From Candidatus Aenigmatarchaeota archaeon (GTDB taxonomy: Archaea > Aenigmatarchaeota > Aenigmatarchaeia > GW2011-AR5): DNA of 55,336 nucleotides. The position numbers and the translations under genes are program-made. Shown in pieces: positions 1,140-33,580 of this stretch. Under the pieces are notes generated by a model. It searched no databases, was not told where the DNA came from, and was given only the letters and a program-made list of their open reading frames with translations. Location: NCBI GenBank assembly GCA_016180925.1, contig JACPAH010000005.1, positions 1-55,336 of the forward strand, given 5' to 3'. Within the stretch, counting starts at the first letter, position 1, and each line of letters begins with the position of its first letter.

Positions 1140-1370
1140 ATGCAATCCGTCATAAGAGGCATCGGCATAGGGTTCTTCGCGTCCTTCTTCCTGTCGCTTT
1201 ATCTGGACAGCTTCATAGGCATAGCAATTCCGTTCTTCATGACGTACTTCATACTGGCGCCTCTCATATCGGCCGTTTCCATAATCATGATACTTTACTC
1301 GAAAAAAGACGAAAAGAGCAGTGCCGGGCTCGAATGGTGGGAAGAGGATACAAAAAAGAGCCCCGAGTGA
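1140..1370 (+). CDS. Small two-helix membrane protein
   Basis: 76 residues. Two hydrophobic segments (about residues 7-27 and 30-52) are followed by a charged cytoplasmic tail with EWWEED. The family is unknown. The last 11-12 bases overlap the 3' end of the convergent tRNA-Thr gene, a tight packing that would leave little room for a separate terminator. A T-rich stretch upstream may be its promoter. Confidence 0.55.
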   Translation: MQSVIRGIGIGFFASFFLSLYLDSFIGIAIPFFMTYFILAPLISAVSIIMILYSKKDEKSSAGLEWWEEDTKKSPE

Positions 1371-1445
1371 GAGTCGAACTCACGACCTACAGTTCTTCCG
1401 GCAAGGCATACGAAACTGTCGCTCTACCAACTGAGCTATCGGGGC
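1359..1445 (-). tRNA. tRNA-Thr(CGT) with a canonical 14-nt intron
   Basis: Acceptor GCCCCGA pairs with TCGGGGC; the T-arm is GTGAG/CTCAC with loop TTCGACT; the discriminator is T, as is usual for archaeal tRNA-Thr. The anticodon stem ACAGT/ACTGT encloses 21 nt: loop TTCGTA plus A, with an intron at 1395-1408. The bulge-helix-bulge fits: helix TTCG with CGGA, 5' bulge TAT cut after A, 3' bulge AGA cut before the last A. This is position 37/38, the standard site. Confidence 0.9.
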
Positions 1446-3808: not shown

Positions 3809-6565
3809 ATGCAATTCAGAAAAGTTTTGGCTGCAGGTGCCATGGCAACCATGATGCTTGGTTCGTCAGTGGCATTTGCGCAATTGGACAAATACCCTGC
3901 ACCTTTCGTCTCCGGCAGTGAAATACCTACATTGGTAGTTGTAGGCGCAGAAGCTGCCCCGGCAGACGTCGTAGGTGCAATAGACCTCTCAGTAAGACTG
4001 GGAGGAGAAGTGACGCAGCTTGTCAAGACATCCGGCGTGTCCGGAACCACAAGCGTGAGCGGAGAAGGCAAGGCAGTGGCGACAACCAACACCAAGCTTT
4101 TCCTTGACGACAGTCTCGGAAAGAGCGGCCTGAGATCAACAATGACAAAAGACGACCTGCCTACATTGCTTGCAACCGGCACGTTGAACGATGCAGATGC
4201 GTCAACAACCCACAAATACCAGCAATTCATATACCTAACACCCGGAAGCACGACGGTACCCGAGTTCACAGCTCAATTCGAGAAGCCTTCAGGGGACTCC
4301 ACGAAGAACCCCACATACAGCTTCGGTGACTGGACAACGGCGCCTACCCCTCTTACCCTAACGACAGGAAACGCCTACATGTACAGGACATCGATAGTCT
4401 TCGACAAGGAGCTCAACGGCACGACAGCAGTTGGTGAAAAAATAAACATGTTCGGAAAGGAATTCACCATTCTGAGCGACACGACTTTCATCAACGGCGA
4501 CGCCTCAACAAGCAACAAAATGGTAATATCAGGCGGTGCCGAGACGAAGGTCCTCAAGTCTGGCGAGAACGTGCAGGTAACGCTCAGCGGAACGTCATAC
4601 GATGTCACCATGGTCGGTACCTCTTCATCAACAGCAGTTGTTTTGAAGGTAGGCAGCGACCAGAAGACAATCAACAAGGGCTCCACTACATCAGTCGGCG
4701 GCCTGGACATCTTCGTTGACGACGTGTTCCAGCTCTCATCCACGGACCAGAGCGTGAACTCGGCAAAACTCCTGCTCGGTGCGCAGAAGGTCATCCTTCA
4801 GCACGGAAGCAAGGTGAAGGTCGGCACGAATGAAGACACACTACAAGGTTCTTACGTAAACCTGACTGTTTCAAGCGGCAAGCTTGCATCATTCAACGTT
4901 TATGTAGGCGGTACCTCATCTGACAAGGACTTCCTTGCTCTTGGCGGTGAGTACATGGACCCTGTGTGGAAGACCTTCAAGCTGGCATTCCCTTCAGTAT
5001 CGCCTGGGCTTGACGACACTACAAACAGGAATACGCTCACAATAGACCCATCAGGAGACAACCTGATCAAGGCAACCGTAATAAACGACAAAGGAGAGAC
5101 GGCAACTGTCAGCTGGGCATACAAATCGGCGAGCACCGGAACGCTATTCGACCTCGCTGATTCGAGCGGATACAGAATACACGTGGCTGAGAACGAAACC
5201 ATCGCAAACAACGAATACTTCGTTGTAGACGCTGGTGACTTTTCGCACATGTTCCAGGTCAGCACTGTAAACCTTGACTCCACAACTTCGGCGTACATCG
5301 ACCTGAGGGACGTATTTTCGGGGACAACCCTGAGGGTAAGTACCTCATCCGACAACAAGGACTCGAAAGTCATAGACGGCCAGACATACTACTTCACAAA
5401 CAGGTCGTCAACGACTTTCGCCGTAACGTGGGGAACAAGCGCGGCTGACAACGTAGTCGGCACATATACAACCGTATTCCCTGTGCTGAAAGGCAAGCAT
5501 GGCGAGAAGTACGCATTCGTGAACGGCAGTGCGAATATAAACATAAACGCCACGACAACGATACAACTCCCTGGCGGCGCATTGGGCACTGTGACGATAT
5601 GGGCAGACGAGGTCGGATCTACTTCGTACCTGAACCTTTCGTCAGCAACGCAGGAAGACGGGACTGCATCAGCATGCCCGCAGTCACCATGTGTGTCGAA
5701 ACTCAACGTAACCTTCGGGTCAGGCGACTCCGAGCTCTTCAACCTGAGCAGAACAGCCACAGGCGGCCTGGTATACAACATATCAGCCTCCCGTGTAGGT
5801 TCAGGCTGGTTGAACATATCAGTCGCATCTGACCAGGACGCAACCGGTGCGGCAAGAGCAACACAGCCCGGCATCGTCCTCATGGAAGAGAAGGACGACG
5901 GCAGCAACGTATATTACGCATACGTGGCAGCCAGCACAGAAACATCCGGCTCGAACAACGTTGCAATACCGACAGCACCTGAATTCACGTCAGTGGAAGA
6001 CACAGACACACTCGGCAGCGACTCGAACGTCAACAGATATGTCGACCTGTACGGTACGTATGCAGAGAGAAAGACTTCAGGACAGGATACCGTGAAGATA
6101 TGGTATCCGGACGAGCAGACAACCCTAGACGTGTTCGTCCTGGCTGAAGGCGCGACAACCTCCGCATCATCCGGCGCTTCAGGAAGCACGGTGAAGCAGG
6201 CAGTCCCGGTAAAAACACCTATAGCAAAACAGGACTCTGAGGTCACGACAGCTGACAAGACAACCAAGAACCTTATCCTGGTTGGCGGACCTGCCGTTAA
6301 CAGCCTCGTAAGAGAGCTCGCAACTGCAGCCAAGACCAAGGACAGGCAGTGGTACCTTGACCAGGGCCCTGGAACAACGCTTGTCGACCTTGTTTCGGAT
6401 GCGTTCACGACCGGCAAATCAGCATTGGTTGTTGCAGGTTACAACGCCGACGACACAAGAACCGGAACCGGAGTCATGCAGAACTACGACGCTCATGCCA
6501 GCGAACTCACCGGCAAGAACAGAGTAGTCTGGAAGAACGGTGTCGTGAGCACGGCAGCTGCTTAA
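3809..6565 (+). CDS. Major S-layer protein
   Basis: 918 residues, secreted. A signal peptide (residues 1-24, ending VAFA) precedes QLDKYPAPFV. The next part, PTLVVVGAEAAPADVVGAID, and the C-terminal part, KNLILVGGPAVNSLVRELA followed by GKSALVVAGYNADDT, match the N- and C-terminal halves of archaeal S-layer domains. The bulk is serine/threonine/glycine-rich beta structure with many N-x-S/T sites, fitting a glycosylated surface lattice. It has its own 386-bp leader region. GC and codon use are slightly more optimised than in its neighbours (ACC, GAC, AAG), as expected for a highly expressed gene. A paralogous region lies in the 1007-residue protein at 20911-23934. Confidence 0.85.
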   Translation: MQFRKVLAAGAMATMMLGSSVAFAQLDKYPAPFVSGSEIPTLVVVGAEAAPADVVGAIDLSVRLGGEVTQLVKTSGVSGTTSVSGEGKAVATTNTKLFLDDSLGKSGLRSTMTKDDLPTLLATGTLNDADASTTHKYQQFIYLTPGSTTVPEFTAQFEKPSGDSTKNPTYSFGDWTTAPTPLTLTTGNAYMYRTSIVFDKELNGTTAVGEKINMFGKEFTILSDTTFINGDASTSNKMVISGGAETKVLKSGENVQVTLSGTSYDVTMVGTSSSTAVVLKVGSDQKTINKGSTTSVGGLDIFVDDVFQLSSTDQSVNSAKLLLGAQKVILQHGSKVKVGTNEDTLQGSYVNLTVSSGKLASFNVYVGGTSSDKDFLALGGEYMDPVWKTFKLAFPSVSPGLDDTTNRNTLTIDPSGDNLIKATVINDKGETATVSWAYKSASTGTLFDLADSSGYRIHVAENETIANNEYFVVDAGDFSHMFQVSTVNLDSTTSAYIDLRDVFSGTTLRVSTSSDNKDSKVIDGQTYYFTNRSSTTFAVTWGTSAADNVVGTYTTVFPVLKGKHGEKYAFVNGSANININATTTIQLPGGALGTVTIWADEVGSTSYLNLSSATQEDGTASACPQSPCVSKLNVTFGSGDSELFNLSRTATGGLVYNISASRVGSGWLNISVASDQDATGAARATQPGIVLMEEKDDGSNVYYAYVAASTETSGSNNVAIPTAPEFTSVEDTDTLGSDSNVNRYVDLYGTYAERKTSGQDTVKIWYPDEQTTLDVFVLAEGATTSASSGASGSTVKQAVPVKTPIAKQDSEVTTADKTTKNLILVGGPAVNSLVRELATAAKTKDRQWYLDQGPGTTLVDLVSDAFTTGKSALVVAGYNADDTRTGTGVMQNYDAHASELTGKNRVVWKNGVVSTAAA

Positions 6566-31943: not shown

Positions 31944-32031
31944 GCGCTTGTAGTCTAGCGGTAGGATACGACCTTGCCAAGGTCGCGAGGCGAAAGCCCG
32001 ACAAACCCGGGTTCAAATCCCGGCAGGCGCA
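31944..32031 (+). tRNA. tRNA-Gly(GCC) with a 17-nt intron in the variable loop
   Basis: Acceptor GCGCTTG/CAGGCGC (one G-T), anticodon arm CGACC-TTGCCAA-GGTCG, T-arm CCGGG-TTCAAAT-CCCGG, discriminator A. After the anticodon stem 21 nt occur where 4-5 are normal. BHB: GTCG pairs with CGAC, 5' bulge CGA, inner hairpin GGC-GAAA-GCC, 3' bulge AAA. Cutting inside the bulges removes 31988-32004 and leaves CGAC, a normal variable loop. Confidence 0.92.
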
Positions 32032-32087
32032 CTAAAAACCGGCACATATCCATACAGCTATTTAAGCAGGGAATTCCATTTCTTATT

Positions 32088-33307: not shown

Positions 33308-33580
33308 TGCGGGAGGGCGGATTCGAACCGCCGAACGGACTAACCGACAAGATTGCCCATCTGGACTTGAGTTTCGCAATCATCCTGCCGTCATAACTCA
33401 AGATGCATCCTTGCGCCTTTTTCTGTCGGAATGAGACCAGATTTCCACATCTTTTCTTTCTGCTGTTCTTTTCTGCAGAAGACGTAAGTCTTCTGAGAAA
33501 TCCAAGAAGATTTCTTTGGAGTCTTCTTGGGATTTGGTACAGCTTTTCTTCTGAAGAAAAGGTGTCTTGGCTACCCCCGC
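33308..33580 (-). tRNA. tRNA-Leu(CAA) with at least three introns
   Basis: Acceptor GCGGGGG/CTCCCGC, discriminator A, T-arm GGCGG-TTCGAAT-CCGCC, variable stem CGG/CCG. Intron 1, canonical, 33354-33365 (12 nt): CTCA pairs with TGGG, bulges AGT and CAA. Intron 2, 33373-33409 (37 nt), between positions 30 and 31 of the anticodon stem: CGCA pairs with TGCG, bulges AGG and AAA. Splicing both gives CAAGA-CTCAAGA-TCTTG, a perfect anticodon arm. The D-loop between GCC (33569-33571) and GGC (33415-33417) has about 138 extra nt; TCTGGTC in the middle looks like the D-loop core, so this is probably two more introns. A paired hairpin unit lies inside the insert. Confidence 0.88.

Follow-up and report, generated by a model that had tools for sequence, protein, structure and literature searches.

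A tRNA-Leu(CAA) gene with four introns in an uncultured archaeon, one of them carrying a putative guide to its own wobble nucleotide

How can a tRNA gene that is interrupted in its D-loop and again around its anticodon yield a canonical tRNA, and what might the interrupting pieces be kept for? The gene in question, a pre-tRNA-Leu(CAA) of 273 nt, lies on the minus strand at positions 33580-33308 of the window (the whole stretch of DNA analysed, 55,336 nt), flanked by a pelota-like gene (34671-33607) on one side and by a downstream reading frame on the other. Its host is a tiny uncultured archaeon whose genome assembly is 844 kb and 81% complete. The unspliced gene was missed by both ARAGORN and Rfam, and Rfam run at lax thresholds on the locus gave chance matches only. 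The initial annotation had placed a tRNA-Leu(CAA) with three or four introns at 33308-33580; it was right about the location and sequence, on the minus strand, and about the CAA identity, the joined exons GCGGGGGTAGCCAAGTCTGGTCAAAGGCGCAAGACTCAAGATCTTGTCGGTTAGTCCGTTCGGCGGTTCGAATCCGCCCTCCCGCA (86 nt) being called tRNA-Leu(caa) by ARAGORN. Four rather than three is the number of introns that stands, with a BHB and an empty site for each. The parts of the locus are as follows.

33566-33580, 33435-33441, 33410-33420, 33366-33372 and 33308-33353, minus strand: five exons, 86 nt when joined
33442-33565, minus strand: intron I1, D-loop position 15/16, 124 nt; BHB 3/4; empty site in relative G001
33421-33434, minus strand: intron I2, D-loop after C20a, directly 3' of TCTGGTC, 14 nt; BHB 3/4
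33373-33409, minus strand: intron I3, position 30/31, 37 nt, with the putative guide module inside; BHB 4/4; empty site in relative G005
33354-33365, minus strand: intron I4, canonical position 37/38, 12 nt; BHB 4/4; empty site in relative G006
33366-33372, minus strand: exon 4, ACTCAAG, nt 31-37, the anticodon loop with CAA
33607-34671, minus strand: pelota-like gene upstream of the tRNA, syntenic in JACPJX010000019.1; named from its sequence, without a family search

The scores listed are those of the central helix at the proposed register, under a single rule: bulge 1 is the last two exon nt and the first intron nt, the central helix pairs exon p-5..p-2 with intron -6..-3, and bulge 2 is the last two intron nt and the first exon nt. 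Registers slid by up to 4 nt were never better; the sole ties (3/4), I1 at -3 and I2 at -2, are disfavoured because the D-loop would then be non-canonical. The I1 and I2 BHBs, with one mismatch each, are of the relaxed form, and the outer helix of I1 is poor. The initial annotation had proposed exact BHBs for a 12-nt intron at 37/38 and a 37-nt intron at 30/31, and both indeed score 4/4; the D-loop insert of about 138 nt that it saw around TCTGGTC resolves into two introns (124 + 14 = 138). Its description of the two anticodon-arm introns as nested was too strong, since neither I3 nor I4 lies inside the other. At its 5' end I1 has the junction GCCAAG/ACACC, which gives the mature D-loop GCCAAGTCTGGTCAAAGGC and the tRNA length of 86 nt.

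Same-family relatives among the Aenigmatarchaeota supply an exact natural empty site for each of the four introns, which makes the four more than a chance arrangement. G001 lacks I1 and reads GCCAAGTCTGGTC, and there too the tRNA follows the pelota-like gene in synteny. TCTGGTCAAAGGCGCAGGACTCAAG is contiguous in G005 (L103), so this genome is without I1, I2 and I3, and ACTCAAGATCTTG is contiguous in G006 (L085), giving the empty site of I4. The I2 site is empty in G002, G004 and G005 and occupied in G001, G003, G006, G007 and G008; the G001 intron shares the place and has a different sequence, and for the relatives' I2 and I4 introns generally position is common and sequence is not. The last part of the tRNA, nt 41-86, is 100% identical to that of a relative. 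The locus therefore has BHBs at both splice sites of its introns (relaxed in I1 and I2), a canonical tRNA after excision, and intron-free homologues, and at the level of sequence we regard it as confirmed that four BHB introns interrupt one tRNA-Leu(CAA) gene.

The tRNA-Leu(CAA) genes of two relatives also have four introns, at other combinations of sites: 15/16, 30/31, 37/38 and T-loop in G009, and 30/31, 37/38, variable arm and T-loop in G012; both spliced forms are called Leu(caa). In G003 (L088), G007 (L087) and G008 (L086) a second, partial tRNA-Leu 3' end (CGGTTCG...CAATCCGCCCTCTCGCA) is found just downstream of tRNA-Leu(CAA), its T-loop broken by an intron-like hairpin insert; this may have been the donor in a gain of a T-loop intron, or be its relic. 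The tRNA was sought in phage records, and a viral relative was sought for the neighbouring gene; neither was found.

A source for I1 can be proposed from within the same genome. The D-loop intron of tRNA-Glu (L066) is nearly identical to I1 over its 5' end (ACACCTTTTCTTCrGAAGAAAAGCTGTACC), and its 3' part matches as well, a hairpin-rich insert of ~66 nt setting I1 apart, and tRNA-Leu(CAG) carries a shorter relative of I1 at the same site. A recent gain of I1, from a family of D-loop introns common to these two tRNAs, is probable. The likeness looks like intron spread between tRNA genes, which has been reported in Thermoproteales (PMC4033280). Hairpin modules of the form CTCAG-hairpin-CTGCAG recur within introns (I1, the second intron of tRNA-Leu(CAG), the T-loop insert of G008), and may possibly be a small mobile element.

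Other tRNA genes of the genome, of which our inventory is partial, also depart from the plain form. The tRNA-Leu(CAG) gene (G000:C16 near 5000-5700, minus strand; L012, L067) has three introns, at 15/16, at a second D-loop site and in the T-loop, and adjoins another Leu-type tRNA gene. Both tRNA-Gly(GCC) (window 31944-32032, plus strand) and tRNA-Thr(CGT) (window 1358-1445, minus strand) are longer than an intron-free tRNA, which suggests an anticodon-loop intron in each. At G000:C38:5634-5737, minus strand (L063, L171), there is a Ser-type tRNA body (G73, Ser-like D-arm) in which a 37/38 BHB (CTCA/TGGG) leaves the loop CTCAAGA, with the Leu anticodon CAA. Among the 19 family genomes a full-length match to it occurs in this genome only; such a tRNA, if real, would offer serine at UUG, and an assembly error is possible.

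The initial annotation overlooked a conserved module inside I3, which bears on why this intron is kept. It has three elements.

33396-33402, minus strand: putative guide CTTGAGT, exact antisense of the tRNA's own nt 31-37
33391-33394, minus strand: D'-like box ATGA, separated from the guide by one nt
33378-33383, minus strand: C'-like box ATGATT, beyond the loop that follows the D'-like box

Counting upstream from the D' box, guide position 5 faces C34 (33369). Across the family, the usual form of I3 is CTTGAGT-N-WTGA...RTGATW-GCGAW before ACTCAAG, at lengths of 29-84 nt, and its WTGA and RTGATW elements look like boxes D' and C'; the consensus boxes CTGA/ATGATG occur in G049, G075, G136 and G143. 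The tandem G.A of a kink-turn is kept and the D1-C5 pair covaries, and the nucleotide at position 5 is nt 34 in Leu, Ser and Trp tRNAs alike. By chance the module arises 34 times per million shuffles of I3. By inspection, no terminal C/D boxes are conserved beside C'/D' within the intron; the module is therefore half of a normal archaeal guide, and we call it C/D-guide-like instead of filing it as a full C/D sRNA. Its guide duplex, at 7 bp, is below the usual length. The guide is not indispensable, for G005, in which I3 is absent, has none in this gene (L103). L137 fits our covariance model (below) yet is without the antisense. We also considered that the antisense merely supports the BHB of I3 itself and rejected this reading, because that BHB uses nt 25-28 and the 3' end of the intron, and antisense and BHB together would make a pseudoknot. 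The best explanation of these features is that I3 would carry a compact guide of C/D type, directing 2'-O-methylation to the wobble C34 of its own tRNA.

Recurrence across the class is consistent with this explanation. We searched 156 class genomes with a covariance model based on seven members of the family, and it matched 43 of them at E<=0.1, the weakest matches being non-tRNA and due to chance; among others, L143, L144, L146, L149, L150, L152 and L153 were set aside as lacking tRNA context, and L140 and L148 are the 37/38 form of the module. The D1-C5 pair, which adjoins the U.U of the C/D kink-turn, is formed in 35 of 37 distinct composites from Leu, Ser and Trp tRNAs (94.6%; U-A 17, C-G 12, A-U 4, U-G 2), with both sides changed in 16; none of 500 shuffles was as good, and shifting the partner destroys the pairing. 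Since the guide core was the query by which these composites were gathered, the unselected tests are D1-C5 and nt 31 only. For the latter, 29 Leu(CAA) genes of the class have the guide in the 37/38 intron, downstream of its target, and 28 of these have a guide position 7 that agrees with nt 31 (T:A 19, C:G 9). The window's own family has the guide in the 30/31 intron, upstream of the target, and family f2 contains the 30/31 form in G075 and the 37/38 form in G074. To judge from these sequences, it is the module that is kept, not the intron position.

The module also appears with other targets. In seven genomes a 30/31 intron of tRNA-Ser(UGA) has the same boxes and spacing with the guide CTCAAGN, antisense to CTTGAG, and since the spacing is kept the target would be U34; the pattern matched 13 genomes, lying within tRNA-Ser in those seven only. 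In tRNA-Trp, TGGAG stands at the same spacing in the 37/38 intron of many class genomes; this pattern matched 55 genomes, the copy in our own genome (L062) included, versus 2 for a reversed control pattern. When the genome's own tRNA regions were scanned for further guide modules, a convincing one was found in tRNA-Trp only. The one-motif C34 guides in tRNA-Trp introns of the class (e.g. L177-L205) are much shorter than other archaeal guide introns described.

The splice sites of I3 are conserved as well: 117 of 124 central pairs of its BHB are kept over 31 loci, through exon/intron types that include CGCA/TGCG, CGCC/GGTG, CGAT/GTCG, CGGC/GCCG and CGCT/AGTG. Because this BHB covaries while the guide pairing is kept, one short intron appears to be under two constraints, splicing and guide. 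Our sample consists of draft genomes, and relatedness inflates the counts, so the case rests on the pairing-preserving changes and on the swap among Ser, Leu and Trp.

How would the two constraints be served by one precursor? Folding the full precursor, a check that the initial annotation had proposed, returned a picture that it did not foresee, in which the guide:anticodon duplex is predicted to exclude both anticodon-arm BHBs: in the predicted ensemble, where kink-turns and pseudoknots are outside the model, the duplex forms with P 0.72-0.95 and the I3 and I4 BHBs with P <=0.04. If the duplex excludes these BHBs, methylation would precede splicing. The initial annotation suggested that splicing may be ordered because the 30/31 intron disrupts the outer helix of the 37/38 BHB, and at the level of structure this is borne out: this helix has 5/5 pairs without I3, and with I3 only one contiguous pair before a mismatch. 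I3 would accordingly have to leave before I4. The possible need to remove one intron before the next BHB forms was already stated in the tRNAscan-SE 2.0 paper (PMC8450103), and RNA-seq in Methanopyrus kandleri has modification before intron removal, with the D-loop intron leaving last (PMC3695527).

We infer that the gene is transcribed, methylated and spliced in a set order. The 7-nt antisense of I3 would pair with the tRNA's own nt 31-37, beside the D'/C' kink-turn, and L7Ae, Nop5 and fibrillarin would 2'-O-methylate the wobble C34. Guiding may take place in cis on the unspliced precursor or in trans via the excised intron; the two are equally possible, and trans action by the excised intron has been reported for Haloferax tRNA-Trp. 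According to the fold model, modification is probably the first ordered event, after which the duplex would be opened, I3 cut, the anticodon stem formed and I4 cut. The archaeal tRNA splicing endonuclease would remove all four BHB introns, and the exons would be ligated.

Genes for two parts of this machinery, the endonuclease and fibrillarin, are present. The genome has one PF01974 endonuclease gene (193 aa; L068:647-1228, G000:C12), and one is likewise seen in every matching family genome, among them all five that are at least 90% complete. The enzyme is nearest in kind to those of M. jannaschii and N. equitans and has a conserved, inserted Lys-rich loop, GVQLKKGPKSAKEH, which is like the loop of the Nanoarchaeum alpha subunit, GVIPKKGKRSEREH; such a loop has been linked to broad substrate range (PMC12397907). 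All 14 aligned members (our own and 13 relatives) have Ala at the position aligned with the catalytic Lys156 of M. jannaschii, so that either a Lys of the loop substitutes for the catalytic Lys or a divergent partner subunit exists. Fibrillarin is above the cut-off in 16 of the 19 family genomes. The fibrillarin gene of this genome (G000:C6:550-1172) is in two overlapping frames, as if frameshifted, and is a single longer frame in G001.

A possible objection is that the four introns are real and that the I3 module has a role in splicing or folding alone: its antisense would hold the anticodon loop, its kink-turn would give the intron its shape and might bind L7Ae, and no methylation would take place. 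Pairing between anticodon and intron is common in pre-tRNAs, the guide duplex dominates the predicted fold, and terminal C/D boxes were not seen. However, Leu, Ser and Trp tRNAs share the fixed one-nt spacing that sets nt 34 at position 5, and so do the two intron positions, the same site is a C/D target elsewhere, and a duplex predicted to block both BHBs would be counter-productive as a splicing aid; we think this reading unlikely.

The imperfect I1 and I2 BHBs, and the reliance on a single metagenome assembly, could also be taken to mean fewer than four splicing events, with I1 and I2 leaving otherwise, together with exon 2, or with the D-loop insert being an assembly artefact. We find this very improbable, given that the exon between them, TCTGGTC, is essential to the D-arm (G18G19), that introns occupy the I2 site in the five relatives named above, and that 15/16 introns are found also in Leu(CAG), Glu and G009. 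Least credible of all is that the gene has decayed into a non-functional copy, loaded with mobile intron sequence, UUG being read by another tRNA: the assembly does hold a second CAA-anticodon tRNA, the one with the Ser-type body, and I1 is enlarged by its hairpin insert, but the exons give a canonical tRNA-Leu with a 3' part identical to that of a relative, as described above, and exons, BHB and guide are conserved while introns turn over. We therefore prefer, with good confidence, the joint explanation of four BHB introns, I3 as a guide to C34, an order of methylation, I3 and I4, and a recent gain of I1. A broader proposal is that a guide-D'-loop-C' element of ~25 nt suffices for methylation of its own wobble nucleotide without terminal C/D boxes, that the duplex acts as a checkpoint blocking the 30/31 and 37/38 BHBs until methylation, and that the element moves between introns and is re-targeted (Trp, Leu, Ser); we offer this tentatively, as something that could well be right though we lean slightly against it.

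Taken singly, BHB introns, multi-intron tRNAs and intron-borne C/D guides have each been described before. The closest precedent is the archaeal pre-tRNA-Trp guide (sR50 in Pyrococcus; Haloferax volcanii), in which an intron likewise guides 2'-O-methylation of C34 of its own tRNA, with the same spacing rule and kink-turn boxes (PMC7994747; PMC4090602). That guide occupies a 37/38 intron of median 65 nt and targets C34 and U39, whereas here a 37-nt 30/31 intron of tRNA-Leu(CAA) has one D'/C' motif and one putative target. One review treats the tRNA-Trp guide as unique among archaea. A further host is described elsewhere, in Nanoarchaeum equitans, likewise a DPANN archaeon, where a 66-nt intron of elongator tRNA-Met has C/D elements (PMC3491384). 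The target nucleotide itself is familiar: Pyrococcus C/D sRNAs are directed to C34 of tRNA-Leu(CAA) (PMC7994747), although from separate genes in trans and not from an intron, and C34 of this tRNA is a predicted C/D target in Sulfolobus (PMC7668247). In yeast, the same nucleotide of the same tRNA undergoes an intron-dependent modification by Trm4 (PMC4090602), a protein enzyme without a guide, and hence convergent at best with the I3 guide.

Several BHB introns at non-canonical sites are likewise reported from Thermoproteales (Pyrobaculum) and from Asgard Atabeyarchaeia (PMC4033280; PMC8450103; PMC11291895). In the freely readable main texts of two of them (PMC4033280; PMC8450103) the maximum is three introns per gene; the four found here exceed the reported archaeal maximum as far as this literature shows, and the Asgard study (PMC11291895) may hold four-intron genes. 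With Trp, and Met in Nanoarchaeum (PMC3491384), as the known hosts, intron-borne guides in tRNA-Leu(CAA) and tRNA-Ser(UGA) would be new as far as the literature shows, as would a one-motif guide in a 30/31 intron.

This family exceeds three introns per tRNA at least three times, and because single introns are gained or lost between close relatives, intron gain can be traced gene by gene. A reason for retaining tRNA introns becomes visible here, with the putative guide principle class-wide in tRNA-Leu(CAA) and present in tRNA-Ser(UGA). The module is compact enough for a minimal guide assay, and it predicts that methylation would come before splicing.
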